Assembly (NCBI GenBank): GCA_964019135.1
Contig: OZ025258.1
Location: forward strand, 34,038,202 to 34,102,201
DNA length: 64,000 bases
Reading direction: 5' to 3'
Source: Arenicola marina
Taxonomy: Eukaryota > Annelida > Polychaeta > Arenicolidae
Shown: in pieces, positions 10,785-64,000 of the stretch
Layout: every line of letters begins with the position of its first letter
Numbering within the stretch: position 1 is the first letter of the stretch
Position numbers and translations under genes: made by a program
Notes under the pieces: generated by a model
What the model was told of the DNA's origin: nothing
Databases searched by the model: none
The model's input: only the letters and a program-made list of their open reading frames with translations

Positions 10785-11414
10785 ATGGTGATAGACGGGA
10801 AGGAGGGCGGAGGAGTCCCGGGCGCTGCAGCTGAGACTGGTGTTACAACTGGTACGGCTGGTTCTGCTGCCGCTGATATGAATGTTACCGATGTTACTGG
10901 TCTTTCCGCCGGTTCTACTGCAGCTGATATGAATGTTACTGATTTTAATGGTCTTATTGCTGGTTCTACTACAGCTGATATGAATGTTATTGATGTTACT
11001 AGTCTTACTGCTGGTTCTACTGCAGCTGATATGAATGTTGCTGATGTTACTGGTCTTACTGCTGGTTCTACTGCAGCTGGTATGAATGTTACTGATGTTA
11101 CTAGTCTTACTGCTGGTTCTACTGCAGCTGATATGAATGTTACTGATGTTACTGGTCTTACTGCTGGTTCTACTGCAGCGGATATGAATGTTACTGATGT
11201 GACCTGTATTACTGGTCTCGGTTCTGTTACTGATGTTGCTGGTGTTACCACTATTGATAGCATGGACACTGTTGCTGGTACTACTACTGCTCCACCACAT
11301 TCTCTACTGCTGCTGCCTCTATTCTTTCTGGTAATACTGCCATTACTGTTAACCATGCTAATTGCCACAAAGGTACATGATGAGTACTGCGACTACTACT
11401 CTAAAACAATGTAA
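10785..11414 (+). CDS. Putative mucin-like repeat protein with C-terminal membrane anchor (intact copy)
   Basis: I do not recognise this as a named family. From the first ATG (gccATGG context) it encodes 209 aa: a short linker, then about seven 17-residue repeats of the type MNVTDVTGLTAGSTAAD, then a Ser/Thr-rich stretch, a 20-residue hydrophobic run (LLLLPLFFLVILPLLLTMLI) and the short tail KVHDEYCDYYSKTM. Each typical repeat holds an N-V-T glycosylation sequon and several Thr/Ser, which suits an extracellular, glycosylated, type I membrane or GPI-anchored protein. There is no signal peptide on this exon. The frame is open upstream only to 10728, so the N-terminus probably comes from an upstream exon (consensus donor at 10608/10609). 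Equivalent ORFs in units 1, 3, 4 and 5 are broken. Coding potential is inferred from frame retention, not homology. Confidence 0.45.
   Translation: MVIDGKEGGGVPGAAAETGVTTGTAGSAAADMNVTDVTGLSAGSTAADMNVTDFNGLIAGSTTADMNVIDVTSLTAGSTAADMNVADVTGLTAGSTAAGMNVTDVTSLTAGSTAADMNVTDVTGLTAGSTAADMNVTDVTCITGLGSVTDVAGVTTIDSMDTVAGTTTAPPHSLLLLPLFFLVILPLLLTMLIATKVHDEYCDYYSKTM
10865..11210 (+). repeat. 51-bp coding minisatellite, unit 2
   Basis: About seven copies of the 17-codon repeat, mostly of the GSTAAD type. Confidence 0.9.
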
Positions 11415-16683: not shown

Positions 16684-17343
16684 ATGGTGATAGACGGGAA
16701 GGAGGGCGGAGGAGTCCCGGGCGCTGCAGCTGAGACTGGTGTTACAACTGGTACTGCTGGTTCTGCTGCAGCTTATATGAATGTTACTGATGATACTGGT
16801 CTTACTGCTGGTTCTGCTGCCGCTGATATGAATGTTACTGATGTTACTGGTCTTACTGCTGGTTCTGCTGCCGCTGATATGAATGTTACTGATGTTACTG
16901 GTCTTACTGCTGGTTCTGCTGCCGCTGATATGAATGTTACGGATGTTATTGGTCTTACTGCTGGTTCTGCTGCCGCTGATATGAATGTTACTGATGTTAC
17001 TGGTCTTACTGCTGGTTCTGCTGCCGCTGATATGAATGTTACTGATGTTACTGGTCTTACTGCTGTTTTCTGCTGCAGCTGATATGATTGTTACTGATGC
17101 TACTGATCTTACTGCGGTTTTCTGCTGTTTCTTGTGTTACTGGTCTTAGTTCTTAGTTACTGATGTTGCTGGTGTTACCACTATTAATAACATTGACACT
17201 GTTACTGCTACTGCTATTACTCTAACACGTGTTCTACCGTTGTTGCCTCTATTGTTGATATTAATACTGTCATTACTATTATTCAGGCTAACTGCCACAA
17301 ACTTACATGTTAAGTACTGTGAGTATTACTCTAAAACAATGTA
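16684..17343 (+). pseudogene. Mucin-like repeat ORF, unit 3 copy, frameshifted
   Basis: It starts at the same ATG (16684) as units 2 and 4 and encodes about six 17-residue repeats. It then hits the same one-base insertion as unit 4 and stops at 17082. A second, similar lesion follows near 17,116, with a further indel before the anchor region (about 17,160-17,300). The copy looks dead as a membrane protein. Confidence 0.5.
16760..17075 (+). repeat. 51-bp coding minisatellite, unit 3
   Basis: About six copies of the 17-codon repeat, mostly of the GSAAAD type, as in unit 4. Confidence 0.9.
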
Positions 17344-23229: not shown

Positions 23230-25666
23230 ATGGTGATAGACGGGAAGGAGGGCGGAGAAGTCCCGGGCGCTGCAGCTGAGACTGGTGTTACAACTGGTAC
23301 GGCTGGTTCTGCTGCAGCTTATATGAATGTTACTGATGTTACTGGTCTTACTGCTGGTTCTGCTGCCGCTGATATGAATGTTACTGATGTTACTAGTCTT
23401 ACTGCTGGTTCTGCTGCCGCTGATATGAATGTTACTGATGTTACTGGTCTTACTGCTGGTTCTGCTGCCGCTGATATGAATGTTACCGATGTTACTGGTC
23501 TCACCGCTGGTTCTGCTGCCGCTGATATGAATGTTACTGATGTTACTGGTCTTACTGCTGGTTCTGCTGCCGCTGATATGAATGTTACTGATGATGCTGG
23601 TCTTACTGCTGGTTCTGCTGCCGCTGATATGAATGTTACCGATGTTACTGGTGTTACTTCTGGTTCTGCTGCCGCTGATATGAATGTTACTGATGTTACT
23701 GGTCTTACTGCTGGTTCTGCTGCCGTTGATATGAATGTTACTGATGATACTGGTCTTACTGCTGGTTCTGCTGCCGCTGATATGAATGTTACTGATGATA
23801 CTGGTCTTACTGCTGGTTCTGCTGCCGCTGATATGAATGTTACTGATGTTACTGGTCTTACTGCTGGTTCTGCTGCCGCTGATATGAATGTTACTGATGT
23901 TACTGGTCTTACTGCTGGCTCTGCTGCCGCTGATATGAATGTTACTGATGATACTGGTCTTGCTGCTGGTTCTGCTGCCGCTGATATGAATGTTACTGAT
24001 GTTACTGGTCTTACTGCTGGTTCTGCTGCCGTTGATATGAATGTTACTGATGATACTGGTCTTACTGCTGGTTCTGCTGCCGCTGATATGAATGTTACTG
24101 ATGTTGCTGGTCTTACTGCTGGTTCTGCTGCCGCTGATATGAATGTTACTGATGTTACTGGTCTTACTGCTGGTTCTGCTGCCGCTGATATGAATGTTAC
24201 TGATGATACTGGTCTTACTGCTGGTTCTGCTGCCGCTGATATGAATGTTACTGATGTTACTGGTCTTACTGCTGGTTCTGCTGCCGCTGATATGAATGTT
24301 ACTGATGATACTGGTCTTACTGCTGGTTCTGCTGCCGCTGATATGAATGTTACTGATGATACTGGTCTTACTGCTGGTTCTGCTGCCGCTGATATGAATG
24401 TTACTGATGATACTGGTCTTACTGCTGGTTCTGCTGCCGCTGATATGAATATTACTGATGTTACTGGTCTTACTGCTGGTTTTGCTGCCGCTGATATGAA
24501 TGTTACTGATGTTACTGGTCTTACTGCTGGTTCTGCTGCCGTTGATATGAATGTTACTGATGTTACTGGTCTTGCTGCTGGTTCTACTGCAGCTGATATG
24601 AATGTTACTGATGTTGCTGGTCTTACTGCTGGTTCTGCTGCCGCTGATATGAATGTTACTGATGTTACTGGTCTTACTACTGGTTCTGCTGCCGCTGATA
24701 TGAATGTTAATGATGATACTGGTCTTACTGCTGATTCTACTGCCGCTGATATGAATGTTACTGATGATACTGGTCTTGCTGCTGGTTCTGCTGCCGCTGA
24801 TATGAATGTTACTGATGATACTGGTCTTACTGCTGGTTCTGCTGCCGCTGATATGAATATTACTGATGTTACTGGTCTTACTGCTGGTTCTGCTGCCGCT
24901 GATATGAATGTTACTGATGTTACTGGTCTTACTGCTGGTTCTGCTGCCGTTGATATGAATGTTACTGATGATACTGGTCTTACTGCTGGTTCTGCTGCCG
25001 CTGATATGAATGTTACTGATGATACTGGTCTTACTGCTGGTTCTACTGCAGCTGATATGAATGTTACTGATGTTACTGGTCTTACTGCTGGTTCTGCTGC
25101 CGCTGATATGAATGTTACTGATGATACTGGTCTTACTGCTGGTTCTGCTGCCGCTGATATGAATGTTACTGATGTTACTGGTCTTACTGCTGGTTCTGCT
25201 GCCGCTGATATGAATGTTACTGATGATGCTGGTCTTACTGCTGGTTCTGCTGCCGCTGATATGAATGTTACTGATGTTACTGGTCTTACTGCTGTTTTCG
25301 GCCGCAGCTTATATGAATGTTACTGGTCTTACTGCTGGTTCTGCTGCAGCTGATATGATTGTTACTGATGCTACTGATCTTACTACTGGTTCTACTGTTA
25401 CTTGTGTTACTGGTCTTAGTTCTGTTACTGATGTTGCTGGTGTTACCACTCTTAATAACATTGACAATGTTACTGCTACTGCTATTACTCTAACACATGT
25501 TCTACCGTTGATGCCTCTATTGTTGATATTAATACTGTCATTACTATTATTCAGTCTAACTGCCACAAACTTACATGTTAAGTACTGTGAGTTCTACTCT
25601 AAAACAATGTACATTAATATTATTGCCTTATGCCCATGTCCCACACTTCTTCTACTGCTACAATAA
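23230..25666 (+). pseudogene. Expanded mucin-like repeat ORF, frameshifted before the membrane anchor
   Basis: From the ATG at 23230 a 707-codon frame runs to 25353 through about 40 copies of the 17-residue repeat, almost all carrying N-V-T. The main alternation is D-V-T-G versus D-D-T-G after the sequon. Near 25,293 one extra base (gctgttttc instead of gctggttc) shifts the frame. The hydrophobic anchor (LPLMPLLLILILSLLLF) is then read only in the next frame, ending at 25666. Unless the extra base is a sequencing error or is spliced around, the product lacks its anchor. Absence of internal stops over 2 kb is expected from a 51-bp period divisible by three, so it is weak evidence of selection by itself. 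Confidence 0.45.
23310..25370 (+). repeat. 51-bp coding minisatellite, unit 4 (about 40 copies)
   Basis: Highly homogeneous tandem repeat of 51 bp. Most copies differ at only a few positions (gtt/gat in one codon, gct/gtt after gcc). Two copies contain actgca in place of gctgcc, which matches the unit 1 and unit 2 type and marks occasional mixing between arrays. Confidence 0.95.
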
Positions 25667-50795: not shown

Positions 50796-51115
50796 CTATA
50801 ATATTTCCGTGTGTATATCACGTGATCGCCGCGGCTGGTTGTCCCGGAACGTATGAATGTGATTTTCGCGTGGCGCAGCATGATAGACCGGGCCCAGCCC
50901 CTGGCGAGTGATCCGCGAACTAGCGTCCGGCACGTGGTTGCCGACAGGGTGCGCTCTGTCCTCCATGTTCGACTGGTCGCCTTCGTTTTCCGCGAGGTCG
51001 TAGTCACCATGGTTACTGCGCGCGCAGCAGGCGTTGGTGACGCAGATGTCGAGTGCCTCGACCAATGAGAGGACGCTTGCGCCGAGAAATAGAGCGAGTA
51101 GTCCCCCCGCGTCGG
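50796..51115 (-). CDS. Channel terminal exon: TM2, selectivity filter and cytoplasmic tail
   Basis: The acceptor cttgtgtttcag opens phase 1. The split Ala codon is followed by DAGG, LLALFLGASVLSLVEALDI and ICVTNACCARS, then an acidic and basic tail of about 75 residues ending RDIHTEIL and the stop at 50796. Gly-Ala-Ser in TM2 is the family filter motif. Leu-Val-Glu at the inner end matches the Leu-x-Glu of ASICs. Confidence 0.9.
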
Positions 51116-54100
51116 CTGAAACACAAGTGACAGAACCTTTACAGCTCATACGGCTTTATATCCGTGACAACAGTTTTATTCTTTCTGTGGGGAAAACAGA
51201 AAAGCTAGCTTTATCCTCAGTCCACATGACGGTCGTAGGCGCATTTACTCAGATGCACGTAGTACATTATCTTTGCTTCCAGATGGGGCCAGTAGAACTG
51301 GGTTGGCCGGAACAGAAAAAGCGGACTTTCCTCATATGACGCTTATGAAGCGTTTGGATTTCATATTCATATAAGTGGCAGTAAAGAAATTAACTTATAA
51401 ATTCGATCATGGTGCAAAAGGGCGCGCGTAGAAACACTGACTATTTTTTACTGCGATGCCTCTTGCATAATCGGCAGTCAGTGGTTTGTACCGTTTAATG
51501 GACTCACTTCATTTATACAAAGCATCCTAAAATTCATTATTCAGAGAGAAAATGCCGACACTAAGACCTGAAAAATAAAACTTAATAGTTCTCTTCCAAT
51601 TTCTCAAGCTTAAAAACCACTACACAACTCGGCGTCCTATCTTAATAAAACAGGGAATTACTGCACCCGAGGTCGAGGTTCACCCCTATGCTATAAATAA
51701 GTTACGGAGGAATTGACTTCACTTTCACGGCTTAATACATGGGTTTCAATGCATACGGATAAGATCATTTCAGAGATGGAACATTTTTGTCTTAGTAAAG
51801 TCGTTTTCTATCTGATATGGTCTCCAATATTCATTATATCTGGATCAGTCAGCTTCTATTCCGTGTCGTACTTTAGGGAAGAAAAGATGTCACATCTGAT
51901 CTATCTCGTATAACGGTCTCGCTCCAATTTATGGCAGTAGGCGAGGCGAGTTGTATCGCAGGGAGAGGCGTGATATCTTACGGGGCACTTAGGGCCTACC
52001 GCCACAGAACGTCCCCCGTGTCGCCTGGGAATGGTGATGCCGCAGGGCTAACGTAGATTGCACACTGAAGACGCTCCACGCCGCACTACACCTGTGACGC
52101 CCCTCGTGACACTACACTCGTGACGCCCCACGTGACACTCTGCACTCGTGACGCCCCTCGTGGCACTACACTCGTGACGCCCCTCGTGGCACTACACTCG
52201 TGACGCCCCTCCTGGCACTACACTCGTGACGCCCCACGTGACACTCTGCACTCGTGACGCCCCTCGTGGCACTACACTCGTGACGCCCCTCGTGGCACTA
52301 CACTCGTAACGTCCCACGTGATACTGCACTCGTGACGCCCCACGTGACACTGTACACTCCTGACGCCCCACGTGACACTCTACACTCGTGACGCCCCTCG
52401 TGGCACTACACTCGTGACGCCTCTCGTGGCACTACACTCGTGACGCCCCACGTGGCACTACACTCGTGACGCCCCACGTGACACTCTGCACTCGCGACGC
52501 CCCTCGTGGCACTACACTCGTGACGCCCCTCGTGGCACTACACTCGTGACGCCCCCCGTGGCACTACACTCGTGACGCCCCTCGTGGCACTACACTCGTG
52601 ACGCCCCTCGTGACACTACACTCGTGACGCCCCTCGTGGCACCACACTGGTGACGCCCCTCGTGGCAGTACACTCGTGAGGCCCCTCGTGGCACTACACT
52701 CGTGATGCCCCACGTGGCACTACACTCCTGACGCCCCACGTGACACTCCACACTCGTGACGCCTCACTTGGTACTCTACACTCGTCACGCCCCTCGTGGC
52801 ACTACATTCGTGGCGACCCACGCGACACCAAACACTCGTGACGCCCCACGTGACACTTTAAACTCATGACGCCCCACGTGGCACTCTACACTCGTGACGC
52901 CCCACGTGGCAACACGAGACGCTGTCTCACGAAGCAGCTGGTCCTGTTCTTAATGGAGCTGACTACACTGCCCCCCCCCCTCCCCCTACCCCCCGCCCAG
53001 CTTCGATGGAAACTCCGCCATCTGTACCCGTCCCGCGGTGAGCCCCGTAAGGATTAACGTACTAAGCCACCGGATTAACTGAAAAATGTGTCGGCTTTAC
53101 CCCGAACGCACGGCGAGTAAGCGAGTGGATCCTTTCACAATAAAACTATTCCTTGTCAGCCTGTTTTACACAGGCAGATCACACACACACAACGATACCC
53201 TCCACCCCCTTCTCCCCAACAGCCAGCCTGCAACGCGCCCTGGTGTCAGATTCATCAAGTTGCCAGTTATCGGCAGGACGGGACTTGACGTGTGAGCGAA
53301 GACGACGCGTCGGCAGATAATTATGACGTCATCTAACGATTCAACACCGCGGTTTGCCTGGCAATCAGCGGGACTAATCTCCATCTGACTACAGCGGTAA
53401 TGAGGACATTACTAACAAACCGGCTCATTGCTTGACTACCCCAGGGCCTGGGCGGTACATGCTGGCGGCGAACACGTGGCCTTATCATTAGGTATGGGGG
53501 AAGGGGAGCGCAGGACATGAGCGTTATAACTGTGGTTCTTACCTAGCAAGCGGAAGAGCGGGTAGACGGGCACGTCGAGGACCTCTTCCTGGTTCTCAGG
53601 GCGCCGGAGGATCTCCACTTTGACGATGTTTTCCCTGTAAGCGACGTGTTTTGCATGAGGGATTAGCCACTACTGAGAGAAGACATGGAAGGCTGAGTGG
53701 TGCTCGCCAAGTGTTTAATGATTGTGTCGGACAGGCAAACATCACATCGCATTCAAAGATAAATCAACACCGCCATTATCACCAGAGCAAAATCGTAGTC
53801 ATTCTGAACAGATGTCTAATCGTATTTGACAAACACGTGGTCATTCTGAACCGATGTCTAATCGTATTTGACAAATACGTGGTTATTCTGAACAGATGTC
53901 TGATCGTATTTGACAAACACGTGGTCATTGTAAACAGATGTCTAATCGTATTTGACAAACACCTGGTTATTCTGAACAGATGTCTAATCGTATTTGACGA
54001 ACACGTGGTCATTCTGAACAGATGTATAATCGTATTTGAAAAACACGTGGTTATTCTGAACAGATGTCTAATCGTATTTGACAAACACGTGGTTATTCTG

Positions 54101-57100
54101 AACATATGTCTAATCGTATTTGAAAAACACGTGGTCATTCTGAACAGATGTCTAATCGTATTTGACAAACACCTGGTTATTCTGAACAGATGTCTAATCG
54201 TATTTGACAAACACGTGGTCATTCTGAACAGATGTATAATCGTATTTGGCAAACACGTGGTTATTCTGAACAGATGTCTAATCGTATTTGACAAACACGT
54301 GGTTATTCTGAACAGATGTCTAATCGTATTTGACCAATACGTGGTTATTCTGAACATAAGTCTGATGGTAATTTGACAAACACGTGGTTATTCTGAACAT
54401 ATGTCTAATTGTATTTGACAAACACGTGGTTATTCTGAACAGATGCCTAATCGTATTTGACAAACACGTGGTCATTCTCAACAGATGTCTAATCGTATTT
54501 AAAAAATACGTGGTTATTCTGAACAGATGGATAATCGTTTTTGACAAACACGTGGTTATTCTGAACAGATGTCTAATCGTATTTGACAAACACGTGGTTA
54601 TTCTGAACAGATGTCTGATCGTATTTGACAAACACGTGGTCATTCTGAACATTTGTCTAATCGTATTTGACAAACACGTGGTTATTCTGAACAGATATCT
54701 AATCGTATTTGACAAACACGTGGTTATTCTGAACATATGTCTAATCGTATTTGACAAACACGTGTTAGCCCAGAACAGCTGTCCAAAGGTATCAGGCTAA
54801 CACCAGTTCGTTCTTAAACAAACCACATAATGTAGCATTAATGGGGGGATGGTGTGTATGGTGTGTAAAACACACCTAAGATAGAGAATACAGAAATAAA
54901 ACTCGACTACAGAATATTAGGAACAGGACGCCATGTTGACCATTATGATTCAGAAGAACACCCACCTGACGAACTGGCTATTGACTTCTGTCTCCTTCCG
55001 AAACCTATCCAGATTGGCGCTGAGCGTGGCGAAGGCCTCTTCCAGGACGGTGTCCGTGTCGGCCAGAGCCTGGGAGACCTCGGTGTCCCGACGGAGTCCG
55101 GCCGCCGCCGCCTGCACCTCGGCCGCCTTCCGGATACTGTTGGTGCCCGGCGTGTCGGCGTTGAGCAGGACGTAGAAGTCGGTCAGCGGCAGGGTTGCCA
55201 GCTTGGGGCGCGGCTGATCCAGAAGCTTGGGGTGACTGAACAGATCCATGTAGCCGGCGACTCGGGACGGCTCCGTGTTCATCTCCTGGACGTCCTCCTG
55301 CAGCCTGGCGTACAGCCCGTGCAGATCCGGAACGTCAAGCAGACCCGACCATAAGTTGCCTAAAGCCCCCGCGTAGCGGCGCCACCGCTGCCAGCGTTCG
55401 GCGTCCTGCAGCCGGAGCCTGGCCAGCACGCGGGCCATATCGGACATGGCCCGGGGCACGTCGAGCGCCTGCCACTTGTCCATCAGGTCGGCTTTCCGAC
55501 GGTCTTTATTGGCTAAGTACTGCTGCGCGGCTTGAGAGAAGTCCTTCAGACGGCCTAACGGAGTGGTAAGTCCTTGATCCAGAGTATCGGACGCCTCTCC
55601 GAACAATCCGATTAGCTCCACGGCGGCCGTCTCGAATGTGTGGTTGACCTTCTTGAAGTGTTCCATCTGGCGCTCAGCGGTGTCGACCAGTTTGTCGACG
55701 ACCTTAGCCTGGAAGAGGCTCATGTGCGCCTCGAGGGCAATGTTACTGCGCACAAACGCCGTTTTGGCCGTCACCAAGCTCGTCTCATTGACCGGCTTCG
55801 ACTGGTAGGCGTCCTTGAGAACGTTCTTCAAGGTCAGGAGGTGTTCCATGTAGGCTGTCAGCTCGTCGGACACGTCCTTGTACACGTCCTTGAGGCCCTC
55901 GTGCAGAGAGCCAATGGTCTGGCGGGGCAGCAGGAAGGAGTCGTAATGCCTATTCGGGGTTAGGATGTAAGCCTCAGACGGCTCTATGTTGAGGAAAGAG
56001 TAGTAAACCTGCGTGAAGTTATCCAGCGTCAGGATGTAGAGTTCTAATTTATCCGACAAGCGCTCGTCCATGAGGAAGTATAGCACCTTGCGCATGCTGA
56101 TTTCGGTGACAGACGTCCGCTGCAGTTGCTCCACTACGCGGTCGTACGAAGAAACGAGCTCCGGGAAGGTGCTGTACAGAGGCCGGAAGAGCCGGGAAGT
56201 CACGTGGTCCCATCCGTCGACGAATCCTTGCGATAGTGAACGCCGTAAGCCGTTTAGTCCCACATGGAAATGGAACCACGAGCGTTTCGCCATTTCTTGC
56301 ATCATGTCGTCCACGTTACGTGACGTCATGCGCATGCGCTCTTTCACGATATCCAACCTCTCGTTGAGGTCGGCGAGAGAGTGCGAGAACTGTAGTATAT
56401 CGGCGGTGTTTTCGGCGTCCCTCTCGGGAAGGACCCGCTCCCGCACGTTGCTTGCCTTGAGGACGGAGCTCTTGACGGAGCTGAAGTATGCCTCCTTCAG
56501 GGCGCCGTCCATATTGTGACTGGACAGACCCCTGGTGGTGACCGCGGGAAATATGCGCGGCCAGCTGCAGGGCAGGGGGCACTGGTAGTCTTTGATGGTC
56601 GTGAACCGCTGCAGGGGTGACCCTGGATGCATAGTAAGCCACAATACTGTCATCTGGCATGGTCGTGTACTTCAATACTAATGTAGACAAGTATGACGGA
56701 TGGAAAGAAATGAATTGGTGTTTAGTTCTAAACTGGGCCAATGAAAAAAGGAATACTGGCTGATAATATTTTTATAATTAGCGCGATTATTTCTGTTTGT
56801 TAAAATGACAAAAAGCAGACCGTAATATCAAAACACACTGTTCCCACACAACCCGTCCAGTGACAACGGCATGCCTTTATATTTATGATATACAGCACAG
56901 ATTTTTATTGTGAAATAAATACACATCAATACATGACTTAGAATATTACCAAAGGCAAATGCGGCTATGCGAGCAATCAACAGGAGAATAGAACAAAGAC
57001 TGGGCGAATGTAATGTTTGTGATTGTTCCATAGATTGTTCATAGATAAGACGTGTATGGGTTTATTCTTGTAACCCCACACCTGAACTGTCGTCCCTGTG

Positions 57101-60100
57101 ATTCGATGCCCAGTATCCTTCACATCATCGTCTACTGAAGACGCATCAATAACTCACCTTTAATGGTGGTACAAAGTATGTGGGACGCCAGTGAGCAGAT
57201 CTGGCCGGGCTCTGAAAGTCAATCACATCATTAATATTCCATGCTTATTGGAGAGATTGTCTGGAAGTTGAGGAAGATTAAAAATAATGTGGTGTCAGTG
57301 TGGTCATGGGATAGCCCTGTCCGGACACGAAAGCCCACATAAAACACAATATATACATGAAACAAAAGAGTACGTAATAAAGCAGTGATAATCTAGGGTA
57401 TAAAATTAATCACAAACAGTTCAGAGGCCAATAGTATTTCTGGTCCCAGGTCCGAATGGACGCCGAACAGTTCACTACCCGAACTGGCGGGATTCGAACC
57501 GACGACTATTCGCATCCAGGGCGAATACCTAGCTTCCCATTTGACCCGAGGCTCTTGTGTCCTTTATCCACCCAGCCTGGGCTCAGATATCACTGTCTCG
57601 TGCCAACATTACGTGCCATTCACAATACCATTCCCTTCGCGACAATAAATGTGCTCGTCGTACCTTCTGCTCGGATTCCGGACCAGAAGGGGCTGCAGCC
57701 GCACTCTGACTGCATGATGGCCGTCACGCTGGTCGCCACGCATGCGCTGTAGGACTGGACGGAGCTGCGGCAAGAACCTTCCCCCTCTGTAGAGCGTTTC
57801 ACCTGTCCTTGAGAAACGGAGGCGCGTGCATAGTATCCTATATAGACTGGCAACGTGCGGCTACAACTGGTCGGACAGCAATTATTCAACCATGTCGTGA
57901 CTATCATTTTTTTTGCTTTCCGAAATTTGCTGGACAACTTCTTTGCTCTTGTTGGTGCAAACTGCATGATATTCCAAATGGAGATGGCATGATGCTCAAA
58001 CTTGGGAAGCTTCTTTAGAAGCAATTTAGATATCATGTGCACATAATACTACCTAAAACACCAACTTTTTATTGCCGTTTCAGTTGATGCATATATGTAA
58101 ATGTAAGGAATTTACAATGTTTCTCCGGGAAGAAATCGCGGTATGAAAAGGTTTATTTGTTATGTGTAAAAGAGAACAAAAAATAGACTACTAGATAGAA
58201 AGCATTAAGCATCGCCTCCAAGCAAAACGCTCTGAACTTCATCAAGAAAACTTATCTGTTTCTGTGAACAATAATTTATAATGTGGGAATATACACTGGA
58301 TTGTAAAATATACGATGATTTTCTTCAACGTGATTTTACGCCACCGTTGTTAACCGACGCATGTGGTGGTCTCCAGCCCACACATCAAACACATCTCGGG
58401 TTAGAGCTCCCTGGCCAGACCACGCTACATCCATCACCCAGCCTGATAGGCTACCAAGCGAGAGGGCTTCTTCACCGATAAGACGTGATTCCCTTAATCT
58501 GTGTTGAGTTCATTGTTCTGGAATAATCCTCCGACTTACGTTCCGGATTACAAAGTGGAAGTCCAAGGAACTTGTTTACAGACACGAAGCGGCCCTTGGG
58601 TAATCGATCGGAGGACGATTAATGCTCCAAATTTTTTGTTTGGCACCGCTTTTCCCGTCCAGTAAAATTCAACTCATGGCTGTAGTATAGACCACGGTGT
58701 GAAGCCAGGGCGTGAAGCCATGGACATGGCTGCAGTATGGACCTCGGTGTGAAGCCAAGGCGTTAAGCCCTGGACATGACTGTAGTATGGACCACGGTGT
58801 AAAGCCAGCACGCAAAGCCATGAACATGGCTGCAGTATGGACCTCGGTGTGAAGCCAAGGCGTGAAGCCATGGACATGGCTGTAATATGGACCGCTGTGT
58901 GAAGCCATGGACATGGCTGTAGTATGAACCACAGTGTGGAGCCAAGGCGTTAAGCCATGGACATGGCTGTAGTATGGACCATGGTGTGAAGCCATGGCGT
59001 GAAGCCATGGACATGGCTGTAGTATGGACCACGGCGTGAAGCCATTGACATGGCTGTAGAATGGACCATGGTGTGAAGCCATGGACATGGCTGTAGCATA
59101 GACCACGGTGATAAGCCATGGACATGGCTGTAGTATGGACCACGGTGTGAAGCCATGGACATTGCTGTAGTATGGACCACGGTGTGAGGCCATGTGTGAA
59201 GCCATGGACATGGCTGTAGTATGGACCACGGTGTGAAGCCATGGACATGGCTGTAGTATGGACCACGGTGTGAAGCCATGGACATGGCTGTAGTATGGAC
59301 CACGGTGTGAAGCCATGGACATTGCTGTATGGACTACGGTGTGAAGCCAGGGCATGAAACCATGGACATGGCTGTAGTATGGACCACGGTGTGAAGCCAG
59401 GGTGTGAAGCCATGGACACGGCTGTATTATGGACCACGGTGTGAAGCCAGGGTGTGCAGCCATAGACATGGCTGTAGCATGGACCATGGTATGAAGCCAT
59501 GGACATGGCTGTAGTATGGACCACGGTGTGAAGCCATGGACATTGCTGTAGTATGGACTACGGTGTGAAGCCAGGGTGTGAAGCCATTGACATGGCTGTA
59601 GTATGGACCACGGTGTGAAGCCATGGACATTGCTGTAGTATGGACTACAGTGTGAAGCCAGGGTGTGAAGCCATGGACATGGCTGTAGTATGAACAACGG
59701 TGTGAAGCCAGGGTATGAAGCCATGGACAAGGCTGTAGTATGGACCATGGTGTGAAGCCAGGGTGTGAAGCCATGGACAAGGCTGTAGTATGGACCATGG
59801 TGTGAAGCCAGGGTGTGAAGCCATGGACAAGGCTGTAGTATGGACCACGGTGTGAAGCCAGGGTGTGAAGCCATTGACATGGCTGTAGTATGGACCACGG
59901 TGTGAAGCCAGGGTGTGAAGCCATAGACATGGCTGTAGCATGGACCATGGTGTGAAGCCATGGACATGGCTGTAGTATGGACCACGGTGTGAAGCCATGG
60001 ACATTGCTGTAGTATGGACCACGGTGTGAAGCCAGGGTGTGAAGCCATTGACATGGCTGTAGTATGGACCACGGTGTGAAGCCATGGACATTGCTGTAGT

Positions 60101-63100
60101 ATGGACTACAGTGTGAAGCCAGGGTGTGAAGCCATGGACATGGCTGTAGTATGAACAACGGTGTGAAGCCAGGGTATGAAGCCATGGACAAGGCTGTAGT
60201 ATGGACCATGGTGTGAAGCCAGGGTGTGAAGCCATGGACAAGGCTGTAGTATGGACCATGGTGTGAAGCCAGGGTGTGAAGCCATGGACAAGGCTGTAGT
60301 ATGGACCATGGTGTGAAGCCAGGGTGTGAAGCCATGGACATGGCTGTAGTATGAACAACGGTGTGAAGCCAGGGTATGAAGCCATGGACAGGGCTGTAGT
60401 ATGGACCATGGTGTGAAGCCAGGGTGTGAAGCCATGGACAAGGCTGTAGTATGGACCATGGTGTGAAGCCAGGGTGTGAAGCCATGGACAAGGCTGTAGT
60501 ATGAACCACGGTGTGAAGCCAGAGTGTGAAGCCATAGACATGGCTGTAGCATGGACCATGGTGTGAAGGCATGGACATGGCTGTAGTATGGACCACGGTG
60601 TGAAGCCATGGACATTGCTGTAGTATGGACTACGGTGTGAAGCCAGGGTGTGAAGCCATGGACATGGCTGTAGTATGAACTACGGTGTGAAGCCAGGGTG
60701 TGAAGCCATGGACATGGCTGTAGTATGGACCATGGTGTGAAGCCAGGGTGTGAAGCCATGGACATGGCTGTAGTATGAACTACGGTGTGAAGCCAGGGTG
60801 TGAAGCCATGGACATGGCTGTAGCATGGACCACGGTGTGAAGCCATGGACATTGCTGTAGTATGGACTACGGTGTGAAGCCAGGGTGTGAAGCCATGGAC
60901 ATGGCTGTAGTATGGACCACGGTGTAAGGCCAGGGTGTGAAGCCATGGACATGGCTGTAGTATGGACCATGGTGTGAAGCCAGGGTGTGAAGCCATGGAC
61001 ATGGCTGTAATAAGGACCATGGTGTGAAGCCAGGGTGTGAAGCCATGGACATTGCTGTAGTATGGACTACGGTGTGAAGCCAGGGTGTGAAGCCATTGAC
61101 ATGGCTGTAGTATGGACCACGGTGTGAAGCCATGGACATTGCTGTAGTATGGACTACAGTGTGAAGCCAGGGTGTGAAGCCATGGACATGGCTGTAGTAT
61201 GAACAACGGTGTGAAGCCAGGGTATGAAGCCATGGACAAGGCTGTAGTATGGACCATGGTGTGAAGCCAGGGTGTGAAGCCATGGACAAGGCTGTAGTAT
61301 GGACCATGGTGTGAAGCCAGGGTGTGAAGCCATGGACAAGGCTGTAGTATGGACCACGGTGTGAAGCCAGGGTGTGAAGCCATTGACATGGCTGTAGTAT
61401 GGACCACGGTGTGAAGCCAGGGTGTGAAGCCATAGACATGGCTGTAGCATGGACCATGGCGTGAAGCCATGGACATGGCTGTAGTATGGACCACGGTGTG
61501 AAGCCATGGACATTGCTGTAGTATGGACTACGGTGTGAAGCCAGGGTGTGAAGCCATTGACATGGCTGTAGTATGGACCACGGTGTGAAGCCATGGACAT
61601 TGCTGTAGTATGGACTACAGTGTGAAGCCAGGGTGTGAAGCCATGGACATGGCTGTAGTATGAACAACGGTGTGAAGCCAGGGTATGAAGCCATGGACAA
61701 GGCTGTAGTATGGACCATGGTGTGAAGCCAGGGTGTGAAGCCATGGACATGGCTGTAGTATGAACAACGGTGTGAAGCCAGGGTATGAAGCCATGGACAG
61801 GGCTGTAGTATGGACCATGGTGTGAAGCCAGGGTATGAAGCCATGGACAAGGCTGTAGTATGGACCATGGTGTGAAGCCAGGGTGTGAAGCCATGGACAA
61901 GGCTGTAGTATGGACCACGGTGTGAAGCCAGGGTGTGAAGCCATAGACATGGCTGTAGCATGGACCATGGTGTGAAGGCATGGACATGGCTGTAGTATGG
62001 ACCACGGTGTGAAGCCATGGACATTGCTGTAGTATGGACTACGGTGTGAAGCCAGGGTGTGAAGCCATGGACATGGCTGTAGTATGAACTACGGTGTGAA
62101 GCCAGGGTGTGAAGCCATGGACATGGCTGTAGTATGGACCATGGTGTGAAGCCAGGGTGTGAAGCCATGGACATGGCTGTAGTATGAACTACGGTGTGAA
62201 GCCAGGGTGTGAAGCCATGGACATGGCTGTAGCATGGACCACGGTGTGAAGCCATGGACATTGCTGTAGTATGGACTACGGTGTGAAGCCAGGGTGTGAA
62301 GCCATGGACATGGCTGTAGTATGGACCACGGTGTGAGGCCAGGGTGTGAAGCCATGGACATGGCTGTAGTATGGACCATGGTGTGAAGCCAGGGTGTGAA
62401 GCCATGGACATGGCTGTAGTAAGGACCATGGTGTGAAGCCAGGGTGTGAAGCCATGGACAAGGCTGTAGTATGAACCACTCCGTCATATCGATTAAGTAC
62501 GTTAGAGAACTCGCTGTCGTGCATTCCCCAAATAAACCACTCGACGCTATCGCGTCTCGTGCTTTATTTTGGCGAATGCACTCCAGCTCGTTCTTTAACT
62601 AGTACATACAATTGTTATAACAAGGCATGACATGTGCTCACGTTTGGACACAGGAATTGACTATTGTGTCAATTGCACTGCCCGACGAATACATGAGCCA
62701 CATTGTGGAAACAACGGTTCGTCATTGTGAAGCCCCAGGGGGTAGAGTAGGGGTGGAAAGGCGTGGATGAAGGAGACATTTTGGAAGTCACTGCTTCTTA
62801 GTTTCGTGAAAACATCGCCCCCTGAACAGTGATATGACGGATATAATGAGAAATGTATGCAATCGATAACTGTGGAATTTCCATATATTTTGAGATTTCT
62901 GATCTAACCCCCGCCCCTTTGGTGCTTAACATTGAATTAGGCATTCCATTGTTTGTCTTGAAATTGGCAAGTTCTGTCAACACCAGCCAACTCGGCTCCG
63001 CTCAGCTCAGCTCGACTGATTATACCGTGACACTTGACGAGTCAATATTAATAACTGTTCTTTATCTAGATAATGCACAGTTTTTCCGTTCATTATTAAA

Positions 63101-64000
63101 ATAAAGCACTGTTTTACCGTTCTTTACACACTTACGTTAATACAACACGGCTAGGTCTGTTTTTCGATCCATTCTTCAAGATAGTGAACACTTAAGACAA
63201 AGGCGTTACGTCACACAATTTTTTAATTGAAGTTAACCACAGGAGGCCTTGTATGATGAAGAATCGATGCCTTAAAGTGCCGGCATGATTCTTATAATAG
63301 GGGAAGTCTGTAAGCGTCTGATGGCAGTATAAAGTAGGTCCAAAGGTTTTTGGACTTTGGAGAGTAAGATGTATTTGCCGGGTTCTTGGGGAGTGGTAGC
63401 ATCTGAACTGTGAAATGAGTTGGTGTTTTAGGCAGCTTTGGTGAACACGGTGGTTATACTAGGCCCCGGATCGCCCCGCGACGATAAGGGATTCGAACCC
63501 AGAATCTCCGACCACTGCGCTAACCACTACACCATAGAGCACCCCACTCGCCCTCGTCCCCAGGGTCTGAAATCTATCGGGTATGTGTACCTTGGCATGT
63601 ACCTTGGCTGTCAGTTGAGTGTCTGACAGTTGGAATCTGCCTTGCCACAACATACCTTGGGTTGATACCACAGAAGCAGTATTATTTAGCAGCCAGGGCA
63701 GTAGCCTTGAGTCATGCATCTTAAAGCATGGATTAAATAGCGAAAACAAACATTTTGCTTCGGAAGTTGTTTACTAAAACACCAGCCACGTCGCGTCCTA
63801 AATGAGACTCCGTATATATAGCGATAGCCATCTGGCGGAGTATGGTGGGTAGGTAGCTCACCAGCTGAACGTGAAGGTCAAGGACGCTGTGAATACCAGG
63901 GGCGACCGCATAACTGGGTGCGTAGGCTGGGTGGTCATCCGCGGCGTGAAGTAGTACCAACAGGCCTTGCCCATTGTCAATGAAGGGAATGTATTCATAC
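50796..64000 (-). CDS. DEG/ENaC (amiloride-sensitive / degenerin-type) cation channel gene, 5' incomplete
   Basis: Seven minus-strand exons join with matching phases: >64000-63862, 58570-58540, 57786-57664, 57211-57158, about 56622-54966, 53634-53543 and 51115-50796. The family forms trimeric Na+/cation channels in the plasma membrane with two membrane helices per subunit and a Cys-rich ectodomain. Seen here: palm segment (GLLVLLHAADDHP, then VAPG), LPLC, a Cys-rich domain (YSACV, ECGCSPFW, ILC, CPLPC), the final ectodomain strand (ENIVKVEI), TM2 (GGLLALFLGASVLSLVE, with the Gly-Ala-Ser filter) and a cytoplasmic tail. An Ala at the degenerin position before Asp-x-Gly-Gly matches MEC-4-type degenerins. 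Oddity: about 500 extra residues between CPLPC and ENIVKVEI. TM1 and the N-terminus lie beyond the window. The family call is firm; the subfamily is not. Confidence 0.88.
51116..52080 (-). other. Intron of the channel gene (3' part), nothing else recognised
   Basis: AT-rich intronic sequence between the terminal exon and the 26-bp minisatellite. Confidence 0.6.
52087..52915. repeat. 26-bp E-box minisatellite in an intron of the channel gene
   Basis: About 31 copies, cactcgtgacgcccctcgtg then gcacta. The centre alternates between cctcgtg and ccacgtg, the latter creating a CACGTG E-box in about a dozen copies. Copies vary from 24 to 29 bp. Confidence 0.95.
53543..53634 (-). CDS. Channel exon: last ectodomain strand before TM2
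   Basis: The acceptor gtcgcttacag and donor CTAG|GTAAGA flank 92 nt. It reads ENIVKVEILRRPENQEEVL, then DVPVYPLFRLL, which aligns with the family pattern Asn-(Ile/Val)-(Leu/Val) ... Tyr-x-(Leu/Ile)...Leu-Leu just before TM2. Confidence 0.88.
53795..54775. repeat. 42-bp minisatellite in an intron of the channel gene
   Basis: About 23 copies of gtggttattctgaacagatg then tctaatcgtatttgacaaacac. The period is a multiple of three, so both strands carry long frames (VVILNRCLIVFDKH on the plus strand), which I treat as spurious. Confidence 0.95.
54966..56622 (-). CDS. Channel exon: CPLPC motif plus about 500-residue ectodomain insert
   Basis: Opens with the last Cys pair (DYQCPLPCSWPRIFPAV), then runs for about 530 residues without similarity to the family core. 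The insert has many heptad-like amphipathic helices (e.g. DLNERLDIVKERM, DELTAYMEHLLTLKNVLKD), three or more Asn-x-Thr sequons (NFT, NET, NHT) and no membrane span or extra Cys cluster. The donor is GTCAG|GTGGGT, phase 2. The acceptor is uncertain: after catccag (56622) or after catcaaag (56589). Both fit the incoming phase; the second avoids a duplicated TTIK motif. The frame is GC-rich at third positions and fully open for 1.6 kb, unlike the repeats around it. Confidence 0.85.
57158..57211 (-). CDS. Channel exon: Cys-rich domain, 54-nt exon
   Basis: The acceptor gactttcag and donor AAAG|GTGAGT flank 54 nt reading EPGQICSLASHILCTTIK, phase 1 at both ends. It provides the Pro-Gly and two Cys expected after Cys-Gly-Cys in the family. 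Confidence 0.8.
57452..57550 (-). ncRNA. tRNA-like SINE head or tRNA pseudogene
   Basis: On the minus strand an A-box-like AAGCTAGGTATTCG, a perfect six-base stem (ATTCGC/GCGAAT) with a seven-base loop, and a B box GGTTCGAATCC are spaced as in a tRNA. Position 33 is not T and the T stem is imperfect, so it is not a functional tRNA. It lies in a channel-gene intron. Confidence 0.45.
57664..57786 (-). CDS. Channel exon: Cys-rich domain, first part
   Basis: The acceptor cgctctacag opens phase 1. It reads EGEGSC, then VQSYSACVATSV, then QSECGCSPFWSGIRAE, and ends at GAAG|GTACGA in phase 1. The Tyr-Ser-x-x-Cys and Cys-Gly-Cys-x-Pro pattern is diagnostic of the DEG/ENaC ectodomain. Confidence 0.8.
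58540..58570 (-). CDS. Channel micro-exon (31 nt)
   Basis: The acceptor ctgtaaacaag is followed by FLGLPLCNPE and the donor GGAAC|GTAAGT. Phase 0 in and phase 1 out, exactly what the neighbours need. It supplies the Leu-Pro-...-Cys element that follows the palm strand in this family. The small size, the AAG acceptor and an alternative start at 58594 (8 more codons) leave some doubt. Confidence 0.55.
58679..62475 (-). repeat. 37/50-bp compound minisatellite in an intron of the channel gene
   Basis: 3.8 kb built of two unit sizes, 37 bp and 50 bp. The longer has an extra 13-bp gtgaagccagggt. Units share gccatggacatggctgtagt. Higher-order blocks repeat: about 465-bp blocks marked by 'cattgctgtagtatgga' (near 59,536, 60,001, 61,048 and 61,511), and a block of about 490 bp at 60,534-61,020 that recurs at 61,944-62,432. 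Long minus frames (HGFTPWLHTVVHTTAMSMAS) are by-products. Confidence 0.95.
62480..63861. other. Intron of the channel gene outside the minisatellite
   Basis: AT-rich; holds the tRNA-like element and weak frames only. A donor-like CCCAAG|GTATGT on the minus strand near 63,661 follows a short open stretch, but its residues do not match the channel family. Confidence 0.4.
63462..63545 (-). ncRNA. tRNA-like SINE head or tRNA pseudogene
   Basis: The minus strand reads TGGTGTAGTGGTTAGCGCAG (A-box region) and, after about 20 bases, GGGTTCGAATCCC (B box). The stems are imperfect. It lies in an intron of the channel gene. Confidence 0.45.
63862..64000 (-). CDS. Channel exon: palm-domain segment (5' end outside window)
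   Basis: Reads YEYIPFIDNGQ, then GLLVLLHAADDHPAY, then VAPGIHSVLDLHVQL. This matches the family pattern of Gly-Leu, a His with acidic-Pro loop, and Ala-Pro-Gly. The exon ends phase 0 at CTG|GTGAGC. From Ala-Pro-Gly there are 14 residues before Leu-Pro if joined to the 58570 exon, the same spacing as in ASIC1. Confidence 0.8.

Follow-up and report, generated by a model that had tools for sequence, protein, structure and literature searches.

DEG/ENaC (ASC) channels are trimers with an amiloride-blockable Na+ conductance; they carry a cytosolic N-terminus with a His-Gly motif, and TM1 lies at the N-terminal end. In ASIC structures, the two segments that flank the region considered here form the palm and lead via beta-11, the beta-11/12 linker, and beta-12 to TM2; the names beta-10 and knuckle helix used below were assigned from ASIC1 structures, and we take them to hold for the present gene. 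By sequence search of the PDB, the nearest described relatives of this gene are ASIC5 (9mky), followed by ASIC1 (6ave) and the FMRFamide-gated Na+ channel (FaNaC, 7yvb), and it has in common with ASIC-type channels the GAS filter of TM2, a cysteine-rich ectodomain, the RENxVKxEI motif of beta-11, and CPxxC. The nearest precedent for an added domain in the accessible portions of the open-access literature is the EGAS proteins of C. elegans, which likewise join a DEG/ENaC channel and an added domain in one chain. In ENaC, according to the available text of PMC10148893, two N-glycosylated asparagines matter for force sensing and matrix tethering has been proposed; the title of a reference cited there places these asparagines in the palm and the knuckle, and ENaC shares with the gene described here glycosylation sites in the knuckle or close to it, with a proposed matrix link. 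The same text mentions a tether model for MEC-4, gives the need for a tether as one reason why mechanosensitivity is hard to reconstitute, and treats the opening of DEG/ENaC channels by force or by partners as debated (PMC10148893).

The window, a stretch of 64,000 nucleotides of the Arenicola marina genome (C11:34,038,202-34,102,201), holds on its minus strand a gene that we modelled as six exons joined by five phase-matched GT-AG introns, yielding 799 residues with a stop at the end (Table 1). The joined protein matched the Pfam family ASC (PF00858) with E=3e-18 and 66.5 bits (cut-off 23.6), and within this match exon f covered ASC positions 386-453 (joined residues 649-715). The G-x-S selectivity filter of TM2 is present in exon f as LFLGASVLSLVEAL, and a cysteine-rich ectodomain with a CPxPC-type landmark is present as eight cysteines at joined residues 57-129, CPLPC included. 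In the PDB sequence search, chains of ASIC5, ASIC1, ASIC2, FaNaC, and ENaC were matched via the beta-11/TM2 part, and the part before the insert gave near-zero scores; the alignment of exon a is weak, with domain scores of 2.1-2.5 bits against ASIC5 and -1.8 bits against ASIC1. On the same strand, about 8.3 kb past the window edge, we found a TM1-like frame (L009:8302-8706; ASC 21-78) that falls short of the cut-off of 23.6 with 16.5 bits (E 0.0044), and the 5,000 bases in between that adjoin the window are given as N. The first-pass annotation had described the exons on both sides of the insert as close fits to the family. The beta-11/12 linker of the window gene, RRPENQEEVLDV, is unlike the commoner form in the other loci read (e.g., MQELSYEEIVQQPAY), so this member could gate differently or be a silent subunit; the C7 gene, for example, has a more canonical beta-11/TM2 part. 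Minisatellites, each of a different kind, lie in three of the five introns, with units of 26/106 bp (52083-52911), 42 bp (53794-54764), and about 50/461 bp (58675-62479).

Table 1. Features of the DEG/ENaC channel gene on the minus strand of the window, with positions counted from the first letter of the window.
Feature	Position	Strand	Basis
Exon a: palm/beta-ball segment, GLLVLLHAADDHPAY..YAVAPG	63862..63999	-	GT donor, phase 0; open at window edge
Exon b: cysteine-rich segment, SCRSSVQSYSACVATSVTAIMQSECGCSPFW	57664..57802	-	GT-AG, phase-matched
Exon c: EPGQICSLASHILCTTIK	57158..57211	-	GT-AG, phase-matched
Exon d: CPLPC, beta-10-like stretch, insert of about 500 residues (predicted helical), end FV(R)	54966..56622	-	AG/GT, phases, homologues
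CPLPC landmark within exon d, N-terminal border of insert	56567..56581	-	translation
Putative sequon N201-F-T (exon residue 201)	56012..56020	-	kept in 8/9 family sequences
Putative sequon N278-E-T (exon residue 278)	55781..55789	-	conserved in P0002; 4/7 rows of A2
Putative sequon N326-H-T (exon residue 326)	55637..55645	-	conserved in P0002; 4/7 rows of A2
Exon e: ENIVKVEILRRPENQEEVLDVPVYPLFRLL, beta-11, beta-11/12 linker, beta-12 region	53543..53634	-	GT-AG, phase-matched; ASIC5/ASIC1 alignment
Exon f: TM2, GAS selectivity filter (ADAGGLLALFLGASVLSLVEAL), cytosolic tail, stop	50796..51115	-	Pfam ASC; ASIC5/ASIC1/FaNaC chains match

The exon that the annotation had placed at 54,966-56,622 is bounded at exactly these positions by an AG acceptor (...atccag/GGTCACC) and a GT donor (TTCGTCAG/gtgggt). 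The reported single open exon of 1.6 kb proved to be 1,657 nt long (1 mod 3), with 551 full open codons that lie within a stop-free frame of 573 codons and canonical splice sites at both ends. At the base composition of the exon, 551 codons without a stop have a probability of 1.5e-8, and the GC content by codon position (0.60/0.39/0.79) is like that of coding DNA. Because an exon of this length is entered at phase 1 and left at phase 2, its skipping would shift the frame. Sixteen frames of at least 338 residues were listed for the window, and the 15 others all overlap tandem arrays. When exon d alone was compared with Pfam, ASC was not matched at E<=1, which is what would be expected if it were a separate gene or an alternative exon outside the channel messenger, a case that the annotation itself had raised against its own reading; however, the exon opens with the channel's own CPLPC, both of its phases fit, and a messenger that skips it is out of frame. 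As judged from the sequence, exon d is a coding exon of the DEG/ENaC channel gene that fits its neighbours in phase and could not be skipped without a frameshift.

Elsewhere in the window, positions 1-34276 form a segmental tandem duplication, in which blocks recur at spacings of about 5.9, 7.0, 8.2, and 14.2 kb. The repeated blocks hold the same 51-bp arrays (1308-1812, 10853-11214, 16752-17127, and 23298-25397), together with CACCCCA-type arrays and 34-bp arrays, and the 51-bp unit, read on the plus strand, is free of stops and would give a repeat of 17 aa that contains an NVT sequon.

A total of 534 residues separate CPLPC from ENIVKV in the window gene. We measured the corresponding spacing in eight ordinary full-length DEG/ENaC frames of the same genome and found 54-64 residues from C-x3-C to the EN-like motif in seven of them, the eighth (L002) being unmatched by the script; for ASIC5, counting on the PDB alignment gave about 35 residues between the same landmarks. 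The baseline of about 20 residues that had been quoted for ASIC1 is thus too low, and the comparison gives the window gene a net gain of about 470-500 residues, by which it differs from ASIC5, ASIC1, and FaNaC. In the PDB alignment to ASIC5, the end of the insert, RFRKETEVNSQFVRENIVKVEI, falls on the ASIC knuckle helix, YLSKKLNQSRKYIRENLVKIEI, which places the gain between beta-10 and the knuckle helix. All 19-residue windows with a mean hydropathy above 1.2 start at residue 684 or later, that is, in TM2, so the insert is without a membrane-like segment by hydropathy, as the annotation had held when it described no extra membrane span.

Comparison of the insert with Pfam and the PDB gave no significant match, and no matrix- or ligand-binding domain of known type was found in it. 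A Pfam scan of seven family members (E<=0.1) returned six weak families, each in one of the seven members and none consistent, among them ASC itself (E 0.057, one member); a profile of the seven-row alignment A2 searched against the PDB gave a best E of 0.085 and nothing consistent. The added domain of EGAS proteins is, by name, EGF, whereas the insert of the window gene has neither an EGF match nor cysteines: EGF families were found neither for the insert (Pfam, E<=1) nor for the seven members (E<=0.1), in scans with the N-terminal part outside their range. Cysteine is absent from joined residues 130-717 of the window gene, and other members have up to five cysteines in the insert.

We then turned to the rest of the A. 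marina genome (867 Mb, 762 contigs), in which 100 exon-level ASC matches were found. Searching with the window insert returned seven places, namely the window and six others, and searching with the insert of a paralogue (L024) returned ten, nine besides L024 itself, among the best candidates scored, adding a locus on C2. The results showed that homologous inserts occur at no fewer than eight loci, six of which are on C11, one on C7, and one on C2. All eight inserts start with C-x3-C, which is CPLPC in the window gene, CPIPC in four loci, and CSIPC, CGIPC, and CPVEC in one locus each; all eight are followed on the same strand by a TM2 exon, and seven are preceded on the same strand by a TM1-like exon. 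In the remaining gene, at C11:11.018 Mb, a TM1 exon was not found in the roughly 9 kb read. The insert acceptor is in phase 1 in all seven loci in which it was read, and the donor is in phase 2 in all eight; the C11:11.018 Mb gene also has an alternative GT two bases before its phase-2 donor. L026 has the insert in two or more pieces and the C11:11.018 Mb gene (L035:5936-10000 and L029) in five or more, so an origin of the insert as one intronless piece is not established. In the C2 paralogue (L041:245-2098), an additional stretch of about 40 residues rich in Ser, Thr, and Pro lies within the insert. COX1 on C762 (L042) makes sense when AGA is translated as Ser, ATA as Met, TGA as Trp, and AAA as Lys, presumably the invertebrate mitochondrial code as judged from the expected residues.

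The linkage to a TM2 exon in eight of eight loci again speaks against exon d being a separate gene, as does the L024 search, in which none of the nine other places among the best candidates scored lay away from ASC exons; we consider a separate gene or an exon outside the channel messenger extremely improbable. Since no insert match was listed away from DEG/ENaC exons among these candidates, a free-standing form of the domain was not found. We read the homologous inserts as the mark of an old DEG/ENaC subfamily, which has eight or more loci in this genome. The channel with a domain fused into its ectodomain that the annotation had proposed would accordingly be a layout repeated before each of the eight TM2 exons, and this recurrence, together with the homologue described next, makes the claim of a fused domain strong; that the insert is a fused part of a DEG/ENaC ectodomain appears to us nearly certain.

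Outside the genome, a search with the insert region against 5.8 billion proteins gave a single match, P0002 (E=1.9e-87), with 7,994 candidates scored. P0002 is a protein of 516 aa encoded on an ENA contig of 10,997 bases and is known from the insert alone, its flanks being unseen; it aligns with the window insert without gaps over 515 residues at 31% identity. A search with a two-row profile found P0002 again and nothing else (7,998 candidates scored), and a scan of viral contigs for the insert gave 119 pattern matches, none of which was confirmed as a relative. The C-terminus of P0002 reads K and then a stop directly after the shared FV, and its exon could end at a phase-2 donor like that of the window exon if the K codon is AAG. 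A protein search with the TM2 residues 655-730 found no match at E<=1 among 431 candidates, either because animal DEG/ENaC channels are scarce in the collection or because a query of 76 residues is unable to score in it. Given this result and the roughly 8,000 candidates scored per insert search, the single homologue says little about how widely the domain is spread.

The annotation had also pointed to Asn-x-Thr sequons in the insert. We found three in the window exon, all of which P0002 keeps at identical positions with no further sequons of its own; the shared N201 sequon is lacking, as judged by eye, in the C11:11.018 Mb gene. Unlike ENaC, the window gene has its sequons inside a large insert. 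To our knowledge, ENaC has no inserted domain. The alignment A2 contains 15 invariant columns, N201 and T203 among them, and the conserved positions are scattered along the whole inserted domain. Pairwise identity within the family is 16-45% (nine sequences). In a tree with long branches and a root placed at midpoint only, P0002 and the window gene were paired with support of 100/100, suggesting that the window lineage, provided the root falls outside these two, left the other loci before its split from the lineage of P0002. The end branch of the window member is long, at 1.55 changes per column, and this, with the unusual beta-11/12 segment, would suit a decaying pseudogene whose long frame is a remnant; its open codons, canonical splice sites, third-position GC of 0.79, and the sequons common to P0002 argue the other way, and we regard decay as very improbable.

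When hydropathy is averaged over the window exon together with P0002, it shows a period of 98-100 degrees, the pattern of an amphipathic helix. Across seven stretches the periodicity peaks lay at 96.5-110 degrees, with a permutation p above 0.04 in two, and did not distinguish a heptad from an eleven-residue period. AlphaFold2 models of two family members, made from two-row alignments, contain helix and loop only, with mean pLDDT of 58.8 and 55.7. At this low model confidence, the inserted domain is predicted to be nearly all alpha-helix, and its last helix is predicted, at the same low confidence, to continue into the knuckle helix leading to beta-11. Of the helical insert described by the annotation, the amphipathic repeat stands, and the helical fold is a low-confidence prediction. 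A Foldseek comparison of the insert model with the PDB gave generic long-helix matches only (best E 0.045) and was set aside.

The inserted domain lies between the cysteine-rich ectodomain and TM2 and has conserved sequons, from which we infer that it would be extracellular and N-glycosylated. In a trimer, the three inserts would stand up from the knuckles like a helical crown or a set of arms, anchored between the two palm strands leading to the gate. Binding of this crown to the matrix, a neighbouring cell, or a partner protein, or pulling on it, would then act through beta-11, the beta-11/12 linker, and TM2 on the pore. From a place between the palm segments, a conserved and probably helical, glycosylated mass could readily pass load or binding energy on to the gate. 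We lean towards this explanation as a whole, an insert in the channel with a helical, glycosylated crown or tether acting on the gate. Its single most likely use, by analogy, would be as a tether or docking arm for the matrix or a partner that acts on gating, a choice we put a little short of even. The tether is our first choice because of the role of N-glycans in force sensing by ENaC and the tether model for MEC-4, as given in the available text of PMC10148893. More tentatively still, the insert may be an undescribed ancient domain, all-helical and glycosylated, that founds a DEG/ENaC subfamily and of which three per trimer would form an external lever or docking crown gating the pore directly via beta-11 and TM2.

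The main rival to the tether accepts that the insert is real and part of the channel and makes it a ligand-binding or subunit-assembly module, which would fix the pairing of subunits or bind a soluble peptide or protein. Peptide-gated channels are among the DEG/ENaC channels of molluscs and annelids, according to the available text of PMC10507113, and nine sequences this diverged would be expected from receptor diversification or from specificity in pairing; the distribution of conserved positions along the domain also suits such a module. No pocket or known binding fold was identified in the insert, however, and the long helices predicted at low confidence are more like a stalk. We hold the receptor or assembly module to be possible and the less probable of the two, and keep the tether as the preferred reading.

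No DEG/ENaC channel with such an ectodomain insert was met in the accessible portions of the open-access literature (PMC10507113, PMC9822975, PMC10424705, and PMC10148893), a body of text that takes in no preprints and few subscription papers. The statement of the annotation that it knew of no such architecture agrees with this limited coverage, and within the literature and the protein collection searched, the giant knuckle insert is an undescribed layout. Elsewhere in the genome, two DEG/ENaC loci resemble the window gene in a probably enlarged ectodomain: in L020:3557-5053 and L022:1941-2888, long TTVEPTTEAI-type or ALGDT-type repeats are in frame and run into a finger-like DCxF, perhaps a different kind of ectodomain enlargement. 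In contrast to the insert, these are repeats rich in Thr/Pro/Glu or Ala/Gly/Asp at another site and not a conserved domain. On the minus strand of L016 (698-4633), an open frame of 1,312 aa contains a DSKRCSLSASRHDCDVSM tandem array, which may be intronic, together with a DEG/ENaC ectodomain and TM2.

The knuckle of the DEG/ENaC fold can, as these at least eight loci indicate, hold a segment about nine times the usual length (534 versus 54-64 residues). If the proposed mechanism is true, A. marina would possess a DEG/ENaC channel that comes equipped with an extracellular tether or receptor, and an exon-sized ectodomain between the strands that lead to the gate would be a unit that may be removed or swapped in tests of gating.
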